Of a stretch of DNA of 20,169 nucleotides, positions 4,181 to 14,799 are shown one piece after another. The DNA is from a virus. A program made the translations under genes and the position numbers. Within the stretch, counting starts at the first letter, position 1; each line of letters begins with the position of its first letter. The DNA lies in IMG/VR virus record IMGVR_UViG_3300030389_000862, positions 1 through 20,169 of that record. One strand, written 5' to 3'. The notes under the pieces are model-generated. The model had not been told where the DNA came from, searched no databases, and saw nothing but the letters and a program-made list of their open reading frames with translations.

Positions 4181-4443
4181 TGTCTAGTTTATATAATAAA
4201 AAAGTAAGAGAAACCTTTCCAGATTTATTAACTGTATTAGGCAGTTCTGTTGGAGAAGGATTAACTACATCTGCTAAAAGAATATTTGATGGAGATGGCA
4301 CAGGTAGTGCATTATTGTTAAGCACAACTACACTTCAAGTAGATGGAACACTTAATTTAAAAGAGCAATCATCGGAACCAAGTAATCCTAGCGTTGGAGA
4401 TTTGGCTTTTATAAATGATGATTTGTATATAGCCAAACAATAG
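4180..4443 (+). CDS. Small structural protein with fibre-like C-terminus
   Basis: The 87-residue protein has a short N-terminal helix (YNKKVRETFPDLLTVLG) followed by beta strands ending in 'LQVDGTLNLKEQ', a Ser/Pro loop and 'VGDLAFINDDLYIAKQ'. The last segment resembles short beta elements found in phage fibre and tail proteins, where 'GDLAFxNDDLYI' recurs. It lies immediately upstream of the first fibre gene (gap of 9 bases), so it may connect fibres to the tail or be a mini-fibre. The function is inferred from this resemblance and its position. Confidence 0.5.
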   Translation: MSSLYNKKVRETFPDLLTVLGSSVGEGLTTSAKRIFDGDGTGSALLLSTTTLQVDGTLNLKEQSSEPSNPSVGDLAFINDDLYIAKQ

Positions 4444-4452
4444 GAGATCATT

Positions 4453-5358
4453 ATGGCAACATGGAAAAAAGTCATTACAGTAGATGATGACGCTAATTAT
4501 AAAAATGAATCAATAACATTAGCACAACTAGATGCAGGATTAGATGGTGAATCTGGTTATGGTGCTAATAAAGTACTAAAAGTTAATAGCTCTGGTAATG
4601 CTATTGAATGGGCAGATGATAATGCTACTACAACTATAGGAGCATTAACAGATGTAAGTATATCTAGCGTAGCAGATAATGAAGTATTAGCATATGATAA
4701 TAGTTCCAGCGAATTTATAAACCAAACTGCTGCTGAAGCAGGGTTACAAACTGCACTTACGTTTGGGGCCTCTAGTGGCAATGCAGTAAAAGTTGTTACT
4801 GGAATAGGTGCAGATATAGATGCGAATGATTTTGCTGTGTTTACACACGATGCAGGAAATGCCTCTGCAGGATTAAAAGGTTTAAGTGCACAAGAAGTTA
4901 GAAGTGCAATTGGAGCTGCACAAGCTGCAGGTCAGTCTAGTCAAAACTTTGCTGCTAATAATTTAACAGTTGCTGGAGATTTAACAGTAACTGGTACAAC
5001 AATAAGTTCTGCTTCAGAAAATATACTAATTGAAGACTCTGTAATGACTTTAAATAGTGGAGTTGCAAGTGGAAACACTGCTATTGATGGTGGCTTTATT
5101 GTTGAGAGAGGTACAAATGGAGCTACTGCAGGTTTAGTTGGAACTGATGGTCACAATGTAGGTTTTGGATTTGATGAATCTGCAGGATATTTTGGGTTTA
5201 GTTCTGGTAGTTCTACTAGTGCATTTACTTTTGTAGCAGGAGTACCTACAGCAACAAACCATGCAACAAATACAGCACCATCTAACGATGATATAGGCCC
5301 AATAGGTTCAATACATGTTGCTACAGATTCTGATTCTGTATATATCAGAGTAGCTTAA
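4453..5358 (+). CDS. Tail fibre protein 1 (WKKV N-terminus)
   Basis: The 301-residue protein starts 'MATWKKVITVDDDANYKN', an N-terminal motif common in marine phage fibres. Residues 15-110 form a low-complexity beta/turn region (GANKVLKVNSSGNAIEWADD). Residues 165-200 contain 'NLTVAGDLTVTGTTISSAS' followed by 'ENILIEDSVMTLNSG', a stretch I recognise from cyanophage and other marine fibres. The C-terminus has a small beta domain (GFGFDESAGYFGFSSG) and closes with 'GSIHVATDSDSVYIRVA'. An AGGAG at 4442-4446 precedes the ATG. The next large fibre gene has the same WKKV opening, which suggests a shared anchor. Fibres of this type are usually trimers, and this one may act as a short spike or connector. 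Confidence 0.72.
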   Translation: MATWKKVITVDDDANYKNESITLAQLDAGLDGESGYGANKVLKVNSSGNAIEWADDNATTTIGALTDVSISSVADNEVLAYDNSSSEFINQTAAEAGLQTALTFGASSGNAVKVVTGIGADIDANDFAVFTHDAGNASAGLKGLSAQEVRSAIGAAQAAGQSSQNFAANNLTVAGDLTVTGTTISSASENILIEDSVMTLNSGVASGNTAIDGGFIVERGTNGATAGLVGTDGHNVGFGFDESAGYFGFSSGSSTSAFTFVAGVPTATNHATNTAPSNDDIGPIGSIHVATDSDSVYIRVA

Positions 5359-5528
5359 TGTCAAAGTTAGTACCTGTTAAAAAGAACAAAGAATCGTTTA
5401 CTGTAAAAGATACAGACTTTTTATTAAAGCTTATTATGAGGTCAACCTTTGACGGTGCTGATATAGACATAGCATACAATGTTCTCAAAAAATTAACTGA
5501 ACTACATAGGTCTAAACTTGAAAGTTGA
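5358..5528 (+). CDS. Small hypothetical protein between fibre genes
   Basis: This 56-residue reading frame starts at the ATG overlapping the stop codon of the upstream fibre gene (TAATG). The product is charged and helical: 'MSKLVPVKKNKESFTVKDTD', then 'FLLKLIMRSTFDGADIDIAY' and a C-terminal 'NVLKKLTELHRSKLES'. It has no membrane segment. Its compact helical look and the TAATG junction, together with a second small gene immediately after it, support a real gene. It could be a fibre assembly helper or a regulatory protein; no function is recognised. Confidence 0.6.
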   Translation: MSKLVPVKKNKESFTVKDTDFLLKLIMRSTFDGADIDIAYNVLKKLTELHRSKLES

Positions 5529-5670
5529 TTTATCAATAGATGATTTAAGTATTCTTAAACAAGCATTAGAAACTATGACAATACGAGGTAAAGATGCTAT
5601 GTTTGTAGGAAAGTTATTAGAAAAGATTACAACCTGTTTTAATAAAGAGTTAGCCAAGGAATCTAAATAA
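5518..5670 (+). CDS. Very small hypothetical protein with TTG start
   Basis: The 50-residue frame is proposed to start at a TTG at 5518, with a TAGG at 5507-5510 as ribosome binding site. It overlaps the previous gene by 11 bases, and its stop overlaps the next gene's ATG as TAATG. The product begins 'MKVDLSIDDLSILKQALETM' (TTG read as Met) and continues as two amphipathic helices (DAMFVGKLLEKITTCFNKEL). An in-frame ATG at 5575 would leave only 31 residues and would lose the DLSIDDLSILKQAL helix, so I prefer the TTG. The fold may be a small helical hairpin. The function is unknown. Confidence 0.5.
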   Translation: MKVDLSIDDLSILKQALETMTIRGKDAMFVGKLLEKITTCFNKELAKESK

Positions 5671-8600
5671 TGCCTAGTTGGAAAAAAGTAGCGTTAGCTG
5701 ATGCAACTAATACATTTACTTCTGACCAAATAGTTGATGGTGGAACTACATCAAGATTAATTATAAATAGTTCTACCCACAATGCAAGTGTAGCTAATGA
5801 AGCTAGACTGCAACTTGGATTTGGTCATTCTGGTGCACCTGATGCTGTAGGCTATATTAAGCTAACCGAAAATGCTACCAATTCATTTGATGGTACAATA
5901 ACTATAGGTGTGCCATATAATAATGGTTCTGGTGGTAGTGCTACAAGAGATGCACTTACTATAAGACAAACAGGTGATACTATTTTTGCTGGTAATATTA
6001 GAGTTGGTAGTGATTTAACAAGCATTACGTCAGATACACATTTTGCAATAGGAGACAGTGGTGATACTCATTTTATATTAGGTGAAGATGTTAATAATCA
6101 CGCCAGAATTACTTGGGATGCATCTGAGGATGCTTTAGACTTTAATTTAAAAGATGGTGGCACTGCTACTGTGCCTTTAATATTAACAGGAACTAGTGCT
6201 ACTTTTTCTGGTGAGGTAAAGTCTACTACTAATATCACATCTAATTCTGGAGGCGTAGGAAAAGTATCATTAGCTACAAGCGGTAATAATGCTGTTATTG
6301 ATATGAACAACAGTACACCATCTCATGTAGTAAGAATTCATGCAGGTGGAGATACTTTTTTTAATGGTGGAAATGTTGGCATTGGAGAAGCTAGCCCAAG
6401 CTATAAACTTGATGTTGTTGGTTCTTATTCTGCACCATCAAAAACTGCAGGAGCTACTGCATTAGTAGGTATAAGTGCAGGTGCTAGTGGGAGTGAATTA
6501 GTCATTGGTGGAGAACAAACTGGTGGCAAAATATGGATTCAAAATAGACATAAGTCTGCAAATGGATATGATTTTGAAATAGCTGTACAACCTCAAGGCG
6601 GTACAACTTCTTTTGGTGGCGATGTATCAATTGGAATGCCCACAGCACAAATGTCAAAAACTTTTCATGTACAGTCTAATACTGGAAGTGCAGGTACTCC
6701 AAATGGCATTATGCTTACCAATACTGTTCATGGAAGTGACAGCCAAATTTATATGTATGCTGAAAATGACAGTGGTACACTAAGTGGTAGTGTAATTAAA
6801 TATGACCCTGATGCAATGTATATGTGGCTTCAAGGGTCAAGTGGTAAAGGTTTATATATTAACCATAGTGGTAATACTATTTTTAGTGAAAATGTTCATC
6901 TTTTAGATGACAATTCTTTAACTCTTGGCACTAACGAAGATGCTCAAATATGGAACGATGGAAGCAATACTTATTTTAGAAATAATGTTTCTAGTCAAGA
7001 TATGATTTTTAAAGTAAGAGTTGGCTCTACCGACACTCAAGTACTCAGATTAGATGGAGCTACAGCAAATGTTGAAATTAATAAACATCTAATATTATCT
7101 AATACATATTCTTTACAATGGGGCGATGTAAATGCAAGAATTGAAGGCTCTACTGCTAATGATTCTATTAATATTCTTACAGGAGGAACAAGTGCATTAA
7201 GTATAAACTCAAGTCAAAATGCTACTTTTGGTGGCAATGTTGAAATAGGCTCTGGTAAAAGTATAGTTTATTCACCTACTGTTTACACAGGTGCAGTACA
7301 AGGTATAAAATTTGACGACCCAGTTGTAACTACTGATTCAATTATACAGCCAGTTAGATTAGCAAGTAATGTAGGTATTCCAATATTTATTGGTGCTAAT
7401 TCTTATGTAAATACATCTGGAAGTATTGTTAGGTACAACACAAGCGAAGAAAGTTCTTTTATACAAGTAGACTCAAGAGGTGATTTGTATTTTGGTACAA
7501 ATAGCTCTGGAGCAACAGCAACTACAAGAATGTATATAAGTCCTGCAGGCAATGTTGGAGTAGGCACAGGAGCAAGTGCATCATATAAACTAGATATTAC
7601 AGGCCCTGCTACAGAAAATGGTTCTACACTTAGACTTAATGATGCAATAGCAAGTAAAAACTCAAAACATTTATTAATACAAAGAGCAAGTTCTACTGCA
7701 AGTATAGGTATAGCAGGTTCTCAAGCTAACGACCCACTATGGATTTCAAGAAGTGGTGGTTATGATTTAATGGTTGCAAGTGGGGGTAATATAGGTATTG
7801 GCACAACATCCCCTGTTGCAAAGCTTGTTGTATCTGATGGTGGTAATGCTGGTATTGAGTTACAACCTGAAATAGTTACAGATACTAATAGAATTACTAA
7901 CTATGATAGAGCTGCAAGTGCATATATGAATTTTAGATTAGATGCGTTGACTCAACAGTTTCTTATTTCCAATACTGAAAAAATGAGACTTGATTCTACA
8001 GGACTAGGCATCGGCACCACAAATCCTGATGCTACCTTGCATTTAGAAGATGGAAATGATACTGAAATAAGATTTTCTTTTGGCAATAGTCAGTATATGA
8101 ACAAGCTAAAAAATGAATGGAGTGCTGGTACAGCATCTGCTAATAAAATGAGATTTCATATTAGTGATGGTTCTACAACTGGTTTTAATGAAGTTTTAAC
8201 TCTTACTGGAGACCAACGAGTTGGTATTGGAAATAATAGTCCTTCAAAAACATTAGAAGTAGATGGAAGTTTTAATTTAGGCTCAAATGCTTTTATCAAC
8301 TACAATGCTACTTATCCATATACAATTAATGTAGAAAACACTGCAGGAGTTGGAAACTTAACATTTCAAGCAGGAACTGGGTCTACTGGTTATAAATCTA
8401 AAATAGAATTGCAAGGTGGAAATACAGCTACTGATGCATCTATTACACTAACTACTGCTGATACTGCTAGAATGACTATTTTAAATAGTGGTGATGTTCA
8501 ACTTGCAAACAATCTCTCACTAACAAATTCAAGTCCAGTAATGTACATGAGTGGTAGTTCAGGAGACCATACTAGGTTTGGATGGGCAGAAGGAGACCCT

Positions 8601-11159
8601 GACGTTGCTTATTGGAGATTTTATCAAAATTCTGGTCTTACTGCATCTATTACTATGGATGCTATTACAGAAAGTACTGCAGGTGGCAAAATAGAATTTA
8701 ATAGTGGTGCATCAGAAGTAGCTATTGCATCTATTGATAGCGGTGGTGTTTTTTTAGGGAGGGATGCAGTTGGTCAACAAACAACTACAGAACTTGGTGG
8801 CTACGGAGTTTTATCTGCAAATGGTCAAAGGTACGGTAATTACGGTTGGCTTACATTTAATGCACCTACAACTAACTTTACAGCCAGTTCAAGAGGTTGG
8901 GCATTAACTAATGGTTATCAGGCACATAGTTTTGCAATATTAAAATCTAGCAATGCGAGTACTGAACCTTATTTAACTACTAATGGCGAATTAGGTACTG
9001 GTGCTACTGCACCTTTTGTTATTGATAATGGTGGAAATGCAACATTTGGTGGTGGGGTAAGTATGCCTACGGGTAATGTTAGCGTAGGTGGAAAATTAAA
9101 TGTATCATCAAGTGTTGGCATTGGAGAGTTGGGTCTTGAAAAAACTTTTTCTATTGCATTTGCTAATGGTGTAGCAAACCAAAAAGCACAAATCCAGTTT
9201 ACAAAATTTTGGGGAGAGTTAGAAATTTCTGTATCAGGTACTTTTTCTCACCAAAATAATGCAGGAGTTATTACTAAAAAATTTGGATTAGGTGTTCAAG
9301 GTGGTGCTACATATGCTGATGAATGTAGATATACAGAATCTTTAGGAGTTACTGCTAATAATTTTGCTATTGGGAATAAGGTTTATGATACTGCAAATAG
9401 TAGATATTATATCCCCATAGTTCATAGAGTTTCTACTGGAAATACTTGTACGGTTCGTGTAAGGTGTTTAGGTGGTGATGCAACTATGACAAATTTTATT
9501 GAAGATTTAACTGTTAGTTCTGTTTACACTACGGATACAACTGTTTACGACAAACCTGAAGTATCATTTATAAGTCCTATTGGTATTGATACAGCTACCC
9601 CTGAAGCCAGTCTTCATGTTCATGGTTCAACTGGTATAAGATTAACAGATAGTAACCAAAATGCCAATGAGTATTCAGAAATAAAATACGATAATGCAGG
9701 AAATACTAATTTACACATAAACAATGATTGGACTAATACGAATGCATTAATCAGTTTTGAGTTAGCTGCCTCAGCAAAAATGGTAGTTAGGGGCGATGGT
9801 AATGTTGGCATAGGAACTACTAGTCCTGATGGATATAAATTAGTAATACATAATTCTTCAGAAGATTTGTTAAGACTGCATAACACTACAGATGGTCTAG
9901 ATTCTTTAATATCATTTACAAATCCCGGAGGCACTTTAGGTAGAATACAAGGCATTGATAATGGTGGATTGGGATTTGATGTAGGCAACAATGCAGGTGG
10001 CATAAATAGCAATGCAATGTTTATAGCTAATAATGCAAAAGTGGGTATAGGTACAACTAGCCCTACAGAGAAATTGACAATTTTTGGTGGCGTTGCAAGT
10101 CCTGCCACTTCAGGAACTGGTGCAAATGGAAACCTTGCTGTTGAATCATCAAATGGAAATAGTCTTTATATAGGTTCGTATTATGCAAGTCCTTATGGAG
10201 TTTGGTTACAAGCTTCTAATTATGCAGACCAATCATTAACATATCCAATAATTTTAAATCCTCGTGGTGGCAATATTGGTATTGGAACAATAAATCCAAG
10301 TGCAGCTTTAGAAGTTCGTGATACAACTGCAAATAATGGACATATTGGTGGAAAAATTAATATAGCTGGTGACTGGAATGAGACAAATATAGCTTACGGA
10401 GGAAATAGGTCACCGGGTGTAACGATTCAATCAATAGATTCTACTGCTGGAAATTTTGGAACATTAAGTTTTATGAATGCAAGCGGATACACTGGTGCTA
10501 CTATTATTGCTAAACATGTATTACATGGTGCTGGTACTGGTAATATGGATACACAATTACACTTTGGTACAAGAGGTATTCATAATCCACAAAGTGGTGC
10601 TCACAATGTTTCTGCTATGGTGATTGATGAAGATGGTTTAGTAGGCATTGGGAAAGACAATCCTACACAAGCACTTGATGTGCAAGGTAGTATTATATCT
10701 AGTAGCGTACTTCTTGCACCAACTTATGCAACATTTATTCACAGTTTTACAGATGACTTAGGTACAACAGGACATTTTATACCTTGGAATAGTAGTGCTG
10801 AAACAACAGGAAATGATTTTAGTTCTACATCATTTGTTGTTCCAATGAACATGACATTAAAGCGTTTATATGTAAGAATTGAAACTATTTCAAATCTTGG
10901 GTCTCATACTCTTACTGCTTCGTTAATTAGTAAACCAGATGGTAGCATAACAAATACTACTGTAGCAACTGCTAGTAAGTCAGTTAACGCTGCTAGTAGT
11001 GGTAGAAGTCAAAAGTTTACAGATTCACAATTTAGTAACCCACCTACTTTATCAAGAGGACAGATGGGTTCAATAAAACTTCAATTCGGTAGTGATATAG
11101 GTGGAAGCACTGACTTTTTTATTACTAGCGTATGGGAAATGGATAACAATACAATATAG
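5670..11159 (+). CDS. Giant tail fibre protein with periodic VGIGTTSP repeats
   Basis: At 1829 residues this is by far the largest gene. It opens 'MPSWKKVALADATNTF', sharing the WKKV anchor motif of the fibre gene at 4453. Eleven copies of a motif like 'VGIGTTSPxxxLxV' occur at residues 236, 629, 708, 779, 851, 1149, 1304, 1379, 1458, 1536 and 1658. Related 'NATFGGNVxIG' elements lie between them (near 319, 409 and 524). These are typical of trimeric beta-helical or repeat-rich phage fibres and adhesins. Residues about 1155-1300 form a non-repeat beta domain. Residues about 1674-1829 form a C-terminal head domain with no visible S74 chaperone motif. It is likely the main host-recognition fibre. 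It starts at TAATG behind two tiny genes. Confidence 0.85.
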   Translation: MPSWKKVALADATNTFTSDQIVDGGTTSRLIINSSTHNASVANEARLQLGFGHSGAPDAVGYIKLTENATNSFDGTITIGVPYNNGSGGSATRDALTIRQTGDTIFAGNIRVGSDLTSITSDTHFAIGDSGDTHFILGEDVNNHARITWDASEDALDFNLKDGGTATVPLILTGTSATFSGEVKSTTNITSNSGGVGKVSLATSGNNAVIDMNNSTPSHVVRIHAGGDTFFNGGNVGIGEASPSYKLDVVGSYSAPSKTAGATALVGISAGASGSELVIGGEQTGGKIWIQNRHKSANGYDFEIAVQPQGGTTSFGGDVSIGMPTAQMSKTFHVQSNTGSAGTPNGIMLTNTVHGSDSQIYMYAENDSGTLSGSVIKYDPDAMYMWLQGSSGKGLYINHSGNTIFSENVHLLDDNSLTLGTNEDAQIWNDGSNTYFRNNVSSQDMIFKVRVGSTDTQVLRLDGATANVEINKHLILSNTYSLQWGDVNARIEGSTANDSINILTGGTSALSINSSQNATFGGNVEIGSGKSIVYSPTVYTGAVQGIKFDDPVVTTDSIIQPVRLASNVGIPIFIGANSYVNTSGSIVRYNTSEESSFIQVDSRGDLYFGTNSSGATATTRMYISPAGNVGVGTGASASYKLDITGPATENGSTLRLNDAIASKNSKHLLIQRASSTASIGIAGSQANDPLWISRSGGYDLMVASGGNIGIGTTSPVAKLVVSDGGNAGIELQPEIVTDTNRITNYDRAASAYMNFRLDALTQQFLISNTEKMRLDSTGLGIGTTNPDATLHLEDGNDTEIRFSFGNSQYMNKLKNEWSAGTASANKMRFHISDGSTTGFNEVLTLTGDQRVGIGNNSPSKTLEVDGSFNLGSNAFINYNATYPYTINVENTAGVGNLTFQAGTGSTGYKSKIELQGGNTATDASITLTTADTARMTILNSGDVQLANNLSLTNSSPVMYMSGSSGDHTRFGWAEGDPDVAYWRFYQNSGLTASITMDAITESTAGGKIEFNSGASEVAIASIDSGGVFLGRDAVGQQTTTELGGYGVLSANGQRYGNYGWLTFNAPTTNFTASSRGWALTNGYQAHSFAILKSSNASTEPYLTTNGELGTGATAPFVIDNGGNATFGGGVSMPTGNVSVGGKLNVSSSVGIGELGLEKTFSIAFANGVANQKAQIQFTKFWGELEISVSGTFSHQNNAGVITKKFGLGVQGGATYADECRYTESLGVTANNFAIGNKVYDTANSRYYIPIVHRVSTGNTCTVRVRCLGGDATMTNFIEDLTVSSVYTTDTTVYDKPEVSFISPIGIDTATPEASLHVHGSTGIRLTDSNQNANEYSEIKYDNAGNTNLHINNDWTNTNALISFELAASAKMVVRGDGNVGIGTTSPDGYKLVIHNSSEDLLRLHNTTDGLDSLISFTNPGGTLGRIQGIDNGGLGFDVGNNAGGINSNAMFIANNAKVGIGTTSPTEKLTIFGGVASPATSGTGANGNLAVESSNGNSLYIGSYYASPYGVWLQASNYADQSLTYPIILNPRGGNIGIGTINPSAALEVRDTTANNGHIGGKINIAGDWNETNIAYGGNRSPGVTIQSIDSTAGNFGTLSFMNASGYTGATIIAKHVLHGAGTGNMDTQLHFGTRGIHNPQSGAHNVSAMVIDEDGLVGIGKDNPTQALDVQGSIISSSVLLAPTYATFIHSFTDDLGTTGHFIPWNSSAETTGNDFSSTSFVVPMNMTLKRLYVRIETISNLGSHTLTASLISKPDGSITNTTVATASKSVNAASSGRSQKFTDSQFSNPPTLSRGQMGSIKLQFGSDIGGSTDFFITSVWEMDNNTI
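6375..10688 (+). repeat. Eleven degenerate fibre repeats (VGIG-type)
   Basis: Copies begin at 6375, 7554, 7791, 8004, 8220, 9114, 9579, 9804, 10041, 10275 and 10641. Each encodes V/I/L-G-I/V-G/D, usually followed by T-T-S/N-P and a short beta strand such as 'LDVVG' or 'LEVDG'. Adjacent spacings are 71-79 residues where copies are consecutive (708-779-851 and 1304-1379-1458-1536), and roughly multiples of that elsewhere. DNA copies differ at many third positions, so the repeats are conserved at protein level rather than freshly duplicated. Confidence 0.8.
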
Positions 11160-11169
11160 GAGTAGAACC

Positions 11170-11496
11170 ATGAAAGGTTATGCACAAAAAAAGAAAGACA
11201 AGAAATGGTCTGTTGGGAAAAGCAAAGAAGTGGTTTCTCCTGCAGTATCAGAAGTAAAAGATGAGAATGGCGTTATAGTTCGTGAAGCGAGAGCTGAAGA
11301 ATCTAAAGAGCTCATTCAATTAAGTAAGAAACGCTATGACCCAGAAACAGGCAAAGCACTTGAAGATTATAAAGAAGTAGTATCTGAAGGTGTTTGTGAT
11401 AATGCTGTTGCTGACATAGATAACCAGATTGCTGAATTAACTGCACAAAAAGAAGGTTGGGAAGCCTTAAAAGCAGATATTAAAGCACTTAAATAA
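11170..11496 (+). CDS. Small charged protein following the giant fibre gene
   Basis: The start is placed at the ATG at 11170, because AGGAG (11158-11162) lies directly before it. The frame stays open upstream only as a shadow inside the fibre gene. The 108-residue product is hydrophilic and starts with a Lys-rich segment (MKGYAQKKKDKKWSVGKSKE). Its middle carries 'KKRYDPETGKALEDYKEVVS', and it ends in an amphipathic helix (NAVADIDNQIAELTAQKEGW) suited to a coiled coil. It lies 10 bases after the fibre gene, a place often taken by fibre assembly chaperones or fibre attachment proteins. No known chaperone family is recognised. Confidence 0.6.
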   Translation: MKGYAQKKKDKKWSVGKSKEVVSPAVSEVKDENGVIVREARAEESKELIQLSKKRYDPETGKALEDYKEVVSEGVCDNAVADIDNQIAELTAQKEGWEALKADIKALK

Positions 11497-11508
11497 AAGG
11501 ATAACAAA

Positions 11509-11748
11509 ATGCCAGATAAAAAAGAAAAAGAAAGTCAGGTAGTTGTCATTAACGATGTAGAATACAAAGTAGATGACCTAACGGAACCTCAAGTAATGTT
11601 AGTAAACCATGTATGGGATTTGGATAGAAAACTTGCAAGTAGCAAGTTTAATCTTGACCAATTGCAAGGTGGTCGTGAACATTTTATGAAAAAGTTAGAA
11701 GCGGAGTTAGAGAATGGCGAGAGTAATGATGCTGTTGAATCTAGCTAA
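11509..11748 (+). CDS. Small hydrophilic coiled-coil protein
   Basis: The 79-residue protein begins with a Lys/Glu-rich tail (MPDKKEKESQ). It then has a short beta segment (VVVINDVEYKVDDLTEPQ) and a helix that runs almost to the end (LVNHVWDLDRKLASSKFNLD, then a charged tail). It looks like a small helical protein with a beta hairpin cap, probably a dimer or oligomer. The ribosome binding site is a weak AGGAT at about 11498-11502. The next gene starts 35 bases inside its 3' end in another frame. The function is not recognised. Confidence 0.58.
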   Translation: MPDKKEKESQVVVINDVEYKVDDLTEPQVMLVNHVWDLDRKLASSKFNLDQLQGGREHFMKKLEAELENGESNDAVESS

Positions 11749-11941
11749 CATTAGTTGTAGTGGTGGTTGGTCAGTGGGTGGGTATGAACTCACCCCTGCC
11801 GACACAAGTAAGCCTAATGTATTTATAGAAATAATGGATACAGATTCGGTAGTTCATTACTATCATGGAGGTTTATATGAATCATCTAATTGGTGTTGGT
11901 TGCATCAAAAATTTGAAATAGTAAAAAGAGTAGATGAGTGA
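11714..11941 (+). CDS. Small aromatic-rich protein, function unknown
   Basis: The 75-residue product overlaps the previous gene by 35 bases in another frame and the next gene by 8 bases. GGAG at 11702-11705 gives the ATG at 11714 a suitable ribosome binding site. In-frame ATGs at 11726 and 11729 are alternatives. It starts with a short hydrophobic run (MARVMMLLNLANISC). The rest is beta-rich and unusually rich in Trp, Tyr and His (FIEIMDTDSVVHYYHGGLYE, then SSNWCWLHQKFEIV). The layout looks like a small beta domain with three cysteines. It leads directly into the membrane protein cassette, but nothing shows a lysis role. Confidence 0.55.
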   Translation: MARVMMLLNLANISCSGGWSVGGYELTPADTSKPNVFIEIMDTDSVVHYYHGGLYESSNWCWLHQKFEIVKRVDE

Positions 11942-12254
11942 AAAACCACATACCGCCAGAAGCTATCGCACTGCCATTCTTGATGATAATGCCATTGTTT
12001 CTATTAATCTTAAATGGCTTGCCCAAGGTCTCGTTCTGGTTGCAGCTTTGGTATATGGTTACTTACAGATTGAAAGTAGGATTAAGACGTTGGAAAACAA
12101 ATTGGTGGAAGCTGATAGCACGATTAGGAGTTTACTTGATAAACACAGCATCGAAGAAGAACGAAAACGGGCGGAATTGGAAAGTAAGCTTTCATTCTAT
12201 GAAAAGGAATTAAATCTTAACCCTTTTAGCTGGGGTAAAAAGAAACGGAAATAA
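11934..12254 (+). CDS. Membrane protein with one helix and a coiled coil
   Basis: The 106-residue protein has a short polar N-terminus (residues 1-24). One hydrophobic membrane segment follows (about 25-44, containing LAQGLVLVAALVYGYL), then a long charged coiled coil (45-95, IESRIKTLENKLVEADSTIR), and it ends 'WGKKKRK'. There is no cleavable signal peptide or lipobox. The topology resembles inner-membrane spanins and some small holin-like proteins. It precedes two more one-pass coiled-coil proteins and, about 1.4 kb downstream, the endolysin. A role in lysis is likely but unproven; a membrane anchor for another phage function is possible. Confidence 0.62.
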   Translation: MSEKPHTARSYRTAILDDNAIVSINLKWLAQGLVLVAALVYGYLQIESRIKTLENKLVEADSTIRSLLDKHSIEEERKRAELESKLSFYEKELNLNPFSWGKKKRK

Positions 12255-12256
12255 TT

Positions 12257-12574
12257 ATGGATTTTATGGCAGTATATGGCGAAGCAGGAATGATAGGCGT
12301 AGTAGGCGTTATGTTCGTTTATTTAGTTATGTCTTTAAGTAAAAAGTCTGAAGCTCAACAAGAGGCTTTAGAAAATCTTAAAGTAGAAAACAAAGGTCAA
12401 TCTGAAACTCTTGAAAATATGGAAGGTATGGTTATTAAATTAATTGCAAGATGGAATCAGTCTGACGACAAGCTTGATAGAAAGTTTGACGGACTTACTA
12501 AAGAAATAAATGATTTAGATAATCAAGTGTCTAGAATAGAAGGGTCACTTAGTAGAATAAATGGAAAGCATTGA
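12257..12574 (+). CDS. Membrane protein with N-terminal helix, holin-like candidate
   Basis: The 105-residue protein has an N-terminal hydrophobic segment (about residues 9-27, GEAGMIGVVGVMFVYLVMSL). This is followed by a long polar helical tail with heptad-like patterning (30-60 and about 69-102, e.g. KEINDLDNQVSRIEGSLSRI). A short N-terminal membrane helix with a charged coiled-coil tail resembles the BhlA/UviB class of small holin-like proteins in topology only. It lies 2 bases after the previous membrane gene, with only a weak ribosome binding site (CGGAA), so coupling is likely. It is the best holin candidate here with moderate confidence; it could equally be a tether or a spanin-like partner. 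Confidence 0.6.
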   Translation: MDFMAVYGEAGMIGVVGVMFVYLVMSLSKKSEAQQEALENLKVENKGQSETLENMEGMVIKLIARWNQSDDKLDRKFDGLTKEINDLDNQVSRIEGSLSRINGKH

Positions 12575-12789
12575 TGGCACACGATAAAGATATATTAGCA
12601 ATGATGGTGAAGTTTAACGAAAGGCAACGAACCATATTTAATACCCTACATAGAATTGAAAAGCATTTAGAAAAGTTGAATGGAAAGGTAGCTAACCACG
12701 AAACTGCTATAGCTAAGTTACAAACAGTTGGTGCAGTAGCTGTAGTTAGTATACCAATAATCGTAAACGTAATAATGAGGATAGTGTAA
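12574..12789 (+). CDS. Small protein with coiled coil and C-terminal membrane helix
   Basis: The 71-residue protein has a polar helical N-terminal half (RQRTIFNTLHRIEKHLEKLN) and a C-terminal hydrophobic segment (about residues 50-69, LQTVGAVAVVSIPIIVNVIM). It would therefore be tail-anchored, the mirror of the two preceding proteins. I chose the ATG at 12574, which overlaps the previous stop as TGATG, over the TTG at 12571, which adds only one residue. The three-gene set of one-pass proteins with coiled coils is compact and probably co-translated. A lysis or membrane-remodelling role is suggested by context. Confidence 0.6.
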   Translation: MAHDKDILAMMVKFNERQRTIFNTLHRIEKHLEKLNGKVANHETAIAKLQTVGAVAVVSIPIIVNVIMRIV

Positions 12790-12965
12790 TGTTAGCAAAG
12801 TTAATAGCAGATGATCTGTTGTCAGATGAGAATGGTGCAGAGGTTATTGCTGAAATAAATAAAGCAGTAGACATACCCATCATATCAGAAAAAACAGAAC
12901 AAAAAATATTAGAAGCACTTTGGAAAGTGATTAAAGGTGTTCTTCTAAAAAAGATTGGTGTCTAA
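12789..12965 (+). CDS. Small amphipathic helical protein
   Basis: This 58-residue frame joins the previous gene and the next by TAATG overlaps at both ends. The N-terminal half is acidic (MLAKLIADDLLSDENGAEVI). The C-terminal half is basic and strongly amphipathic (KILEALWKVIKGVLLKKIGV), of a kind that can bind membranes or a partner helix. It has no full-length membrane segment. Given its place between the membrane cassette and the basic-protein cluster, it may assist lysis or membrane contact. The function is not recognised. Confidence 0.58.
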   Translation: MLAKLIADDLLSDENGAEVIAEINKAVDIPIISEKTEQKILEALWKVIKGVLLKKIGV

Positions 12966-13285
12966 TGCCTGCCAAAAGAAAATCTACTAAAAGATCTTAT
13001 AAGACTCCTGCATGGCAAAGAAAAGCAGGTAAGAATCCTAAAGGTGGATTAAATGCTAAAGGTAGAGCATCTGCTAAGAGGCAAGGTAGTAATTTAAAAC
13101 CACCTCTTAGCAAAGGCACTAGTCCAAGAAGAGTAAGCTTTGCTGCAAGGTTTGCAGGAATGAAAGGCCCTATGAAAGACTCAAAGGGTAGACCTACAAG
13201 AAAAGCATTGGCTTTAAAGAAGTGGGGATTTAGTTCTGTTGCTGCAGCAAGAGCATTTGCAAATAGACATAAAAAGAAAAAGTAG
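12965..13285 (+). CDS. Small basic protein 1 (DUF6321-like)
   Basis: The 106-residue protein has 21 Lys and 12 Arg and only one acidic residue. The motif 'WQRKAGKNPKGGLNAKGRAS' followed by 'GSNLKPP' and 'SPRRVSFAARFAGM' matches a conserved small protein of phages that I know as DUF6321; the function of that family is not established. A 'KGRP' core sits at residues 74-77 and the C-terminus ends 'ANRHKKKK'. It starts at a TAATG junction. Its charge strongly suggests nucleic-acid binding. It is the first of three consecutive very basic genes, so it may help condense or protect phage DNA. Confidence 0.68.
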   Translation: MPAKRKSTKRSYKTPAWQRKAGKNPKGGLNAKGRASAKRQGSNLKPPLSKGTSPRRVSFAARFAGMKGPMKDSKGRPTRKALALKKWGFSSVAAARAFANRHKKKK

Positions 13286-13292
13286 GAATACT

Positions 13293-13472
13293 ATGCCAAG
13301 AAAAAAGAAAAAGAAAGGCTTGTATGCAAACATACATGCAAAACGTAAACGAATTAAAGCTGGTAGTGGTGAGAAAATGAGAAAACCCGGATCTAAGGGT
13401 GCACCAACTGCAGCAAACTTTAAACGAGCTGCTAAAACAGCTAAGAAAAGAAAGCCAAGAAAAAGGAGATAA
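13293..13472 (+). CDS. Small basic protein 2
   Basis: The start is placed at the ATG at 13293. The frame runs further upstream but there it only overlaps the preceding gene, and a TAGGAA lies just before this ATG. The 59-residue product has 17 Lys, 9 Arg and one Glu, with no other acidic residue. It begins 'MPRKKKKKGLYANIHAKRKR', continues 'IKAGSGEKMRKPGSKGAPTA' and ends 'KKRKPRKRR'. The 'KMRKPGSKGAPTA' segment is one I recognise from small conserved proteins in marine phages. It should be disordered in isolation and bind DNA or RNA electrostatically. Confidence 0.66.
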   Translation: MPRKKKKKGLYANIHAKRKRIKAGSGEKMRKPGSKGAPTAANFKRAAKTAKKRKPRKRR

Positions 13473-13474
13473 TT

Positions 13475-13636
13475 ATGCCTTACGGAAAAGGAACATATGG
13501 TTCTAAAAAAGGTAGACCACCAAAGAAAAAGAAACCAGCTAAAAAGAAAGGTAAGTCAATGCTTACTAAAAAGCAAAAAACATTGCCTAAAAAACTTCAA
13601 CGTATGATTGTTAAATCTAAAAAGAAGAAGAAATAA
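13475..13636 (+). CDS. Small basic protein 3 with AT-hook-like core
   Basis: This 53-residue frame follows 2 bases after the preceding stop, with AAGGAGA directly upstream as ribosome binding site. The product has 22 Lys and 2 Arg and no acidic residue at all. It opens 'MPYGKGTYGSKKGRPPKKKK', where 'KKGRPPKKK' looks like the GRP core of an AT-hook, a minor-groove binder of AT-rich DNA. A short less-charged segment (LTKKQKTLPKKLQRMIVK) may form a helix, and the end is a run of lysines. The AT-hook idea is inference from the core motif. A similar 'MPYGKGTYGS' start occurs in marine phage proteins. Confidence 0.65.
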   Translation: MPYGKGTYGSKKGRPPKKKKPAKKKGKSMLTKKQKTLPKKLQRMIVKSKKKKK

Positions 13637-13638
13637 TA

Positions 13639-14037
13639 ATGCCTAGGTTTGGAAAAAGAAGTAAACAAAGACTACAAGGTGTTGATGCTAGACTTGTTAA
13701 TGTTCTTAATAAAGTTGTTAAATACTTTGACATTACTGTAATAGAAGGTCTTAGAAGTCAGGAAAGACAAAATGAACTGGTTGCTAAAGGTCTAAGTAAA
13801 ACAAAGTATGGTAAGCATGTACAAGGCAAAGCAGTTGATATTTCGCCATATCCGATAGATTGGGATGCTAGGGATGACTTCCATTACCTTGGTGGTTTTG
13901 TGCTTGCTACAGCAGCTTCTATGGGCATTAAGATACGTTGGGGCGGAGATTGGAACGCTAGTTCTTTGTATAAAGGTAAACGTACAACAAAAGATAATAA
14001 GTTTGACGATCTTGTACATTTTGAATTGTTGGATTAA
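13639..14037 (+). CDS. Peptidase M15 endolysin (T5 endolysin-like)
   Basis: The 132-residue protein has the catalytic pattern of a zinc M15 peptidase that cuts the peptide stems of peptidoglycan. The zinc ligands are His60 and Asp67 in 'GKHVQGKAVDIS' and His127 in 'DDLVHFEL', and Asp124 is the likely catalytic acid. The spacing (7 residues between the first two ligands, 60 to the third) is the same as in the T5 endolysin (His66, Asp73, His133), an L-alanyl-D-glutamate peptidase. 'RWGGDW' at 100-105 also fits. There is no signal peptide, so a holin must release it. It starts at a TAATAATG junction after the basic-protein genes. Confidence 0.85.
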   Translation: MPRFGKRSKQRLQGVDARLVNVLNKVVKYFDITVIEGLRSQERQNELVAKGLSKTKYGKHVQGKAVDISPYPIDWDARDDFHYLGGFVLATAASMGIKIRWGGDWNASSLYKGKRTTKDNKFDDLVHFELLD

Positions 14038-14799
14038 ATGAAAAGAGCAATAGTAATACCAGATCAACACTTTCCTATACATGATGAAGAAGCAGTTAAT
14101 GTAACTCTTCAAGCTATAGAGTATGTAAAGCCAGAGATATTTATCAATCTTGGTGACGTAGGTGAATGGGATAGTGTATCCGCATGGAGATTTAAAGGTA
14201 AACGATTACCTAATCTTGAACATCAACTTATAGATGTAGATAAAGAAATCGAAGCTGTTAATGCTGGTATAGATATGTTTGACAAATCTTTAGATAAAAT
14301 AAAATGTGAGGAGCGATACATTCTTGCAGGAAACCATGATGAATGGTTAGATCATTTTGTTAACAAACATCCATACTTAAAAGGTTACAGATTTAGAGAT
14401 GCATGTAGATGGAAAGAACGTGGTTATAAATATTATGCATATAATAAACCTTTAAAGTTGGGTAAAGTAAACTTTATACATGGAGCTTACGCTACAACAT
14501 ACCATGCTAAAAAACATCTAGAAGCTTATGGATCAAACATAGTCTATGGACACACTCACGATATTCAAAGGCATAGTTTGACTAAATTAGATTCTGGTAC
14601 AATTGCAGCATGGTCTATGGGTTGTTTAAAAGATATGTCACCGGGTAAGAATAAATGGTTAAAAGGTAGATTGCATAACTGGAATCATTGTTTTGGTATT
14701 GTAACATTCTTTGATAGACCAAAAGGTAACTTTCAGATAGAACAGATAGAAATTGTAAAAGGTCAATGTACGCTATGGGGAGAACAGTTTAATGCCTAA
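14038..14799 (+). CDS. Calcineurin-like metallophosphoesterase
   Basis: The 253-residue protein carries all the metal-binding motifs of the family: D9-x-H11 in 'PDQHFPIH', D40 in 'NLGDVGEW', N99-H100 in 'AGNHDEW', H148 in 'FIHGAY' and H172-x-H174 in 'YGHTHD'. This set indicates an active two-metal phosphoesterase, which may act on nucleotides, nucleic acids or phosphoproteins. It starts immediately after the endolysin stop and overlaps the next gene by 8 bases. Such enzymes occur in phages near structural or replication genes. Its substrate is unknown; a virion-carried or late-infection role is suggested by its place among late genes. Confidence 0.85.
   Translation: MKRAIVIPDQHFPIHDEEAVNVTLQAIEYVKPEIFINLGDVGEWDSVSAWRFKGKRLPNLEHQLIDVDKEIEAVNAGIDMFDKSLDKIKCEERYILAGNHDEWLDHFVNKHPYLKGYRFRDACRWKERGYKYYAYNKPLKLGKVNFIHGAYATTYHAKKHLEAYGSNIVYGHTHDIQRHSLTKLDSGTIAAWSMGCLKDMSPGKNKWLKGRLHNWNHCFGIVTFFDRPKGNFQIEQIEIVKGQCTLWGEQFNA

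Follow-up and report, generated by a model that had tools for sequence, protein, structure and literature searches.

The IMG/VR virus record IMGVR_UViG_3300030389_000862 comprises 45,606 bases, of which positions 1 to 20,169 were analysed here (the window). Downstream of a gene for an SU10-type capsid protein, an open reading frame (ORF) encodes a protein of 1829 residues that matched tail fiber families in PHROGs (phrog_18345, E value 1.1e−22; phrog_9942, E value 4.2e−22), the matches being partial, with the best stretches at approximately residues 589 to 796. Since no Pfam family was identified in the protein at an E value of ≤0.1 and its C terminus resembles a jelly-roll tip, it was not placed among the fibres that end in a C-terminal S74 chaperone and protease domain. 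This analysis concerns the short joint element that recurs along the fibre and the positions at which blocks shared with the fibres of other phages begin and end.

Joint elements along the fibre

The gene had been described in an earlier note, made from the letters of the DNA, as a giant fibre with a regular module of 71 to 79 residues marked by VGIGTTSP-like motifs. All eleven motifs were found, with the first G of GIG at residues 237, 630, 709, 780, 852, 1150, 1305, 1380, 1459, 1537 and 1659 and gaps of 393, 79, 71, 72, 298, 155, 75, 79, 78 and 122 residues, as claimed. A matrix learned from other fibres backed 10 of the 11 (nine with 0 of 500 shuffles and the motif at 630 with 1 of 500); it gave no support to the motif at 1150 (VGIGELGLEKT), which is degenerate and has no proline. 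The spacing of 71 to 79 held for six of the ten gaps. Under uniform placement, one 9-wide band received 2.3 gaps on average, and as many as six in 1 of 5000 trials. Most of the remaining gaps had been called close to multiples of about 75, which is correct for 155 and 298 and incorrect for 122 and 393. Elements of the NATFGGNV type were also present, near residues 315, 519 and 1124. The joints are listed below with their matrix scores, where the VGIGTTSP-type motif is termed a capping loop, or cap, for the reasons given further on.

5670..11159, + strand: fibre gene, open frame of 1829 amino acids
6342..6422, + strand: capping-loop joint, G at 237 (score 41.1, 0 of 500 shuffles)
7203..7250, + strand: NATFGGNV-type joint, residues 512 to 527 (half-element at 525, block end at 520)
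7521..7601, + strand: capping-loop joint, G at 630, weak form (score 8.9, 1 of 500 shuffles)
7758..7838, + strand: capping-loop joint, G at 709 (score 46.0)
7971..8051, + strand: capping-loop joint, G at 780 (score 23.8)
8187..8267, + strand: capping-loop joint, G at 852 (score 33.9)
9018..9065, + strand: NATFGGGV-type joint, residues 1117 to 1132 (half-element at 1125, block end at 1123)
9546..9626, + strand: capping-loop joint, G at 1305, weak form (score 10.1)
9771..9851, + strand: capping-loop joint, G at 1380 (score 35.3)
10008..10088, + strand: capping-loop joint, G at 1459 (score 45.8)
10242..10322, + strand: capping-loop joint, G at 1537 (score 33.0)
10608..10688, + strand: capping-loop joint, G at 1659, the last before the tip (score 37.1; shared block from 1660)

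Gap lengths were also examined in those of 117 unique fibre ORFs (the window's is one of them) that have at least three motifs. Here 509 of the 921 gaps (55%) measured 60 to 94 residues compared with 21% under uniform placement; the set is biased towards this spacing, as a query that contained two caps had retrieved many of its loci. Sequence conservation around the motif was assessed in 831 windows from fibres other than that studied here (kept from 940 at <50% mutual identity) and spanned only positions −12 to +14 of the first G, or approximately 27 residues, with the consensus (E)(R)M-R-I-x-S-x-G-N-V-G-I-G-T-T-S-P-x-x-K-L-D-V-x-G. No column beyond −20 or +18 exceeded 0.11 bits. No tandem repeat was identified in the fibre gene, and 10 of the 11 sequences tested, the window's fibre among them, showed no near-identical internal blocks. 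The unit is therefore a joint placed at fairly regular spacing, and the segments between joints are not repeats of one another in sequence; a module of 71 to 79 residues in the sense of a sequence repeat was not upheld. The earlier note had also held that a lack of similarity outside the short motif would speak against a modular rod. That lack is what was observed, yet profile and fold matches place the motif at capping loops, as set out below. The exception among the 11 sequences was the fibre of locus L109 (relatives are given by locus numbers), at 4439 to 13633 of its contig, which has 3064 amino acids, 26 caps and near-identical internal stretches; that contig stretch carries none of the window's other genes.

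Shared blocks and where they end

Relatives with the same N terminus were retrieved with an N-terminal query, and shared blocks were strictly scored and ungapped. The corresponding features of the window are as follows.

5670..5987, + strand: N-terminal region, putative virion anchor, residues 1 to 106 (96 to 99% identical in L089, L086 and L087)
6636..6656, + strand: indel site, residues 323 to 329 (L002 has 73 more residues, equal to one cap-to-cap module)
7581..7808, + strand: travelling module, residues 638 to 713 (91 to 93% identical in L089, L002, L104 and L105)
8214..8486, + strand: shared block, residues 849 to 939 (388 to 478 in L089, 93% identical)
8487..9038, + strand: shared block, residues 940 to 1123 (88% identical; 873 to 1056 in L089 and 27 to 210 in the second ORF of L087)
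9072..9581, + strand: stretch without known relatives, residues 1135 to 1304, possibly an embedded domain
10704..11156, + strand: C-terminal tip, predicted jelly roll, residues 1679 to 1829 (from model confidence, VIA structure comparison and 27 tip loci)

Downstream of residues 1 to 106, which may serve as the virion anchor, the sequences of L089, L086 and L087 diverged from that of the window's fibre. Blocks with 87 to 94% identity were found at other, non-colinear positions in other fibres. Residues 638 to 713 sit at 1283 to 1358 in L089, 586 to 659 in L002, 503 to 576 in L104 and 1050 to 1123 in L105, and at 70% identity in L109. The blocks 849 to 939 and 940 to 1123 adjoin in the window and lie apart in L089. 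The 73-residue indel in L002 is flanked by blocks of 83% and 84% identity. For the stretch at 9090 to 9590 (residues ∼1141 to 1307), no relatives were identified in viral contigs, phage records or the PDB (best PDB E value, 0.6). The proposal that the rod is modular and gains or loses modules is supported by the cap-to-cap indel, the relocated blocks in relatives and a tip family carried on proteins of very different lengths, with the module redefined as a joint-bounded segment.

In L087, the capsid gene was 97.7% and the phosphoesterase gene 98.4% identical to the window at the DNA level, yet the two fibre genes have in common only an initial 318 bases (98%), a single block (90%), the tip (75%) and four matches of 39 to 62 bases. 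The L087 fibre (7059 to 11614) is split into ORFs of 848 and 618 amino acids, and the frame is lost near a mosaic junction matching the window's cap 852, either in reality or through error. A capsid-protein query recovered 80 loci, 8 of which had an ORF with at least two GIGxxxP motifs; module counts are not comparable across these loci, as many contigs are too short and end before the fibre. In nine that were inspected closer, the fibre position was occupied by other long proteins, in which between 0 and 3 loose motifs were seen. In L008, L013, L052, L061 and L085 (major capsid protein 73 to 83% identical), the fibre position, between the capsid gene and the downstream genes, holds proteins of 899 to 1468 amino acids with at most one loose motif.

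Block ends were located in a core of six sequences (the window, L089, the pieces L086 and L002, and the two L087 ORFs), all retrieved by queries other than the single-module query. They were compared with the caps and with half-joints, a term for the upstream part of the joint element, whose matrix was trained on 789 windows from outside the family. There were 62 unique interior block ends. Of these, 35 fell within 10 residues of a cap (random mean, 8.1; standard deviation, 2.6; 0 of 5000 trials) and 52 within 10 residues of a half-joint (16.5; 3.4; 0 of 5000). Across nine sequences, 45 of 93 ends were near caps (11.5 expected) and 73 near half-joints (24.7 expected). The half-joint also accounted for ends at a distance from any cap, including those at NATFGGNV elements: 46 ends were separated from the nearest cap by more than 20 residues, and 28 of these had a half-joint within 10 residues (8.4 expected; 0 of 3000). 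In the later-found fibres L188 and L190, 16 of 27 ends fell within 10 residues (6.8 expected; 0 of 5000). Extension of a block end by chance reached 5 residues or more in 0.19% of 20,000 random pairs, as measured on existing sequences.

Several figures weigh against too strong a reading of these counts. Widening the band to 15 residues in L188 and L190 added no ends and weakened the excess (16 of 27; 9.6 expected; 64 of 5000). The half-joint matrix is loose, with 16 hits in the window's fibre compared with about 9 by chance. Because the two partners of a compared pair do not contribute independent ends, the careful count takes the window's ends alone. This gave a weaker excess: 6 of 17 ends lay near caps (2.0 expected; 52 of 5000), and 11 of 17 lay near half-joints (3.1 expected; 0 of 5000), one of these 11 (1766) being inside the tip.

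Relation to Bdellovibrio fibres and the C-terminal tip

A phmmer search of the PDB with the whole protein returned one sequence below an E value of 0.001, Bd2133 (8ond; 5.5e−4). A profile of the module region built from 26 sequences matched five PDB sequences at an E value of ≤0.1, all of them Bdellovibrio mosaic adhesive trimer (MAT) fibres (best, 1.7e−22). When a model of residues 590 to 880 was searched with Foldseek, the top ten matches were again all Bdellovibrio MAT fibres, three at an E value of ≤0.001. According to passages of PMC10769870, the capping loops R656-H669 and F752-H765 of Bd3182 edge trimeric beta-helices. By residue count in the PDB chain, with the same offset, these loops read RVGVGTTAPTSALH and FFGINTAAPAYNIH and carry the window's motif, although in the loop consensus printed in those passages the distance from V-G to the proline is one residue shorter. 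Profile search and loop sequences together agree with the MAT superfamily feature of beta-helix segments that end in capping loops. From the profile and fold searches, the window's motif probably corresponds to the capping loop that closes trimeric beta-helix segments in MAT fibres. Against this stands the quality of the module model, a single chain with a mean predicted local distance difference test (pLDDT) score of 62 and a predicted template modelling score of 0.40, which superimposed on the matched chains with template modelling (TM) scores of only 0.13 to 0.26 and root mean square deviations (rmsd) of 8 to 14. Such low TM-scores are as expected for one chain modelled out of an intertwined trimer, but are not proof of it.

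The MAT fibres Bd2133, Bd3182, Bd1334 and Bd2439 (PMC10769870; PDB 8ond, 8onc, 8oml and 8ol4) resemble the window's fibre, by profile and fold search, in capping-loop sequence, in its position between segments and in carrying interchangeable tips on a conserved rod. They differ in that the window's fibre is a far longer phage structural gene without a signal peptide, and in that rod segments, not tips alone, appear to be exchanged in the phage fibres. No hydrophobic stretch was seen in the N terminus MPSWKKVALADATNTFTSDQ, read by eye with no predictor run. The fibre thus appears to work like a MAT fibre, yet it is not filed as a MAT member because it has no signal peptide and its N-terminal domain was not compared. 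Excerpts of a preprint on a marine element (PMC12324425) cite the Bdellovibrio fibres for comparison. Passages of PMC10769870 give 142 to 150 Å for 370 residues of Bd2133 and approximately 550 Å for a full-length Bd3182 model; scaled from these sizes, the window's fibre would measure some 70 to 130 nm overall and 3 to 5 nm per 75-residue segment. The number of modules could then set the reach of the fibre, as the earlier note proposed.

The C-terminal tip is likely a jelly roll by predicted structure. In the tip model, residues 311 to 460 (1680 to 1829 of the protein) had block mean pLDDT values of 74 to 97. VIA comparison with the receptor-binding protein of phage 1358 gave a Z score of 9.4 and an rmsd of 3.3 over 133 aligned residues; PRD1 P5, viral capsid jelly rolls, RANKL and 4-1BBL, which are unrelated jelly rolls, came within about 1 Z of this match. 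By sequence, the tip matched no phage record, and its best PDB hit had an E value of only 3.7. Members of the tip family were located at 27 loci, and ORFs were examined at 22 of them (L183 to L186 and L191 were left out, their contigs being already covered). Seven of the 22 carry 1 to 11 caps and 15 have none; nine of the latter are 222 to 235 residues long, several being mutual near-duplicates. Lengths of the proteins that carry this tip range from 222 residues, where caps are lacking, to 1829. Tips at least 63% identical to the window's occurred on capped fibres only. Two points limit what the tip adds: the rod part of the tip model (residues 1 to 310) was mostly below a pLDDT of 60 and is uninformative, and the nine short uncapped proteins carry tips with no more than 33 to 35% identity to the window's.

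Other observations concern the ends of the fibre and the genes around it. A 131-amino-acid ORF (11101 to 11496, + strand) overlaps the end of the fibre gene by 59 bases, and a homologue (75 to 95% identical) follows the tip in 9 of the 27 tip loci; its product is possibly an assembly partner of the fibre. A W/Y-K-K-V/I start motif (MPSWKKV, MATWKKV, MANWKKV, MPTYKKV, MASWKKI) opens several proteins, at 4453 to 5358 and 5670 in the window and in L188, L195 and L199, and is perhaps a shared anchor. The genes after the fibre include the following.

12257..12574, + strand: spanin-like gene (phrog_739, E value 2.5e−4)
13639..14037, + strand: endolysin gene (phrog_465, E value 2e−39)
14038..14799, + strand: metallophosphoesterase gene (phrog_221, E value 1.1e−28)

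Proposed origin of the mosaic rod

These features are probably best explained, and with good confidence, by a long trimeric fibre in which an anchor, a beta-helical rod whose segments differ but whose joints are standard, and a jelly-roll tip follow one another, the segments being exchanged at the joints. The phage would be a tailed one with an SU10-like capsid protein, and the gene product its long, trimeric tail fibre. In this fibre, residues 1 to ∼106 would be the anchor and residues ∼110 to 1660 a rod made of intertwined beta-helix segments, most of them 70 to 90 residues long. Either a capping loop (consensus M-x-I-x-x-x-G-N-V-G-I-G-T-T-S-P-x-x-K-L-x-V-x-G) or an abbreviated version of it (GNATFxGN) would close each segment. 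Residues 1679 to 1829 would be the jelly-roll tip, the probable receptor binder. Segments would be exchangeable because the joint is standard and the segment sequence free, so that a crossover at a joint could swap, insert or remove segments between phages. Exchange may take place at many positions, with the survivors being those products whose joint still closes the beta-helix; selection for a closed fold is the favoured explanation for joint-bounded exchange.

Alternatively, the conserved DNA of the caps could itself act as a recombination hot spot that places the crossovers, an idea reportedly proposed for the conserved motifs of T-even fibres. Block ends at caps, DNA matches of 31 to 62 nucleotides between caps or joints of different phages, and a cap DNA identity of 0.44 compared with 0.31 at random would all fit. 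However, the longest common word between caps averaged 7.4 bases and that between random in-frame windows 7.0 (within this gene, not among actual donors), and many ends lie at half-joints without the GIGTTSP half. Since the cap DNA words are no longer than random within the gene, structural compatibility is favoured, and a DNA hot spot is considered unlikely.

Less likely again is a true tandem-repeat rod, in which one ancestral 75-residue unit was multiplied within the gene by unequal crossing-over. The six gaps of 71 to 79 residues and the internal stretches of L109 are in keeping with it, but nothing is conserved between motifs, the gene has no tandem repeat, near-identical internal blocks are absent from the other 10 sequences tested, and matching blocks occur in other phages. 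Assembly artefact, to which the origin of all close relatives from IMG/VR contigs and the frame loss at such a junction in L087 might point, is the least probable source of the mosaic and unlikely as a general cause, as four contigs, each from a different metagenome, show the L089 arrangement with nucleotide differences of 0, 0 and 5, the residues of L188 and L189 are 99.9% identical, cap DNA words common within the window's gene do not exceed 12 bases, and isolates share a block too (S-B28 residues 184 to 371, 48.5% identical to S-CBP3).

Several known systems are comparable with the exchange proposed here. In T-even tail fibres, Tetart in 1998 is said to have described exchange at short conserved motifs inside the fibre gene, with adhesin tips being swapped; here rod segments appear to be swapped, and the cap DNA in this gene has no long common words. 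Among isolates, the fibres of Synechococcus phages S-CRES2 (12 caps spaced 71 to 94) and S-B28 (5 caps spaced 73 to 90) resemble the window's, and similar fibres occur in Synechococcus, Pelagibacter and Roseobacter phages, with many of the matches being to other parts of the query. The isolated marine phage fibres differ in having shafts 24 to 34% identical to the window's and other ends. Passages of PMC10684548 describe recent mosaicism in tail fibres and spikes and the shuffling of fragments in phage receptor-binding proteins, and in those passages the junctions are not tied to a structural loop. Tail-fibre variability in marine phages is already known, according to parts of PMC3909814. A literature text search with the letters of the motif found no paper, and nothing describing the exchange of segments at capping loops turned up in listings and abstract openings of open-licence PMC papers, a scope outside which most subscription papers lie. 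The loop, the fold and fibre mosaicism are thus known separately; this analysis adds that, in a family of marine phage fibres, individual segments change position and blocks end at the joints formed by capping loops.

The findings offer a rule, based on sequence, for the places at which natural phage fibre rods are cut and joined, and link marine phage fibres to the solved Bdellovibrio structures. If exchange is bounded by joints, the composition and length of the rod would vary independently of anchor and tip. Whether phages alter fibre length independently of specificity becomes testable from joint counts in population genomes. More tentatively, the capping loop may be a general plug in marine phage fibres, through which any beta-helix segments ending in it could be spliced together, so that phages would draw on a common pool of rod segments; predatory bacteria would have this plug in their own fibres too. 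If so, a general plug would let phages tune the reach and side contacts of their fibres while leaving anchor and tip untouched.

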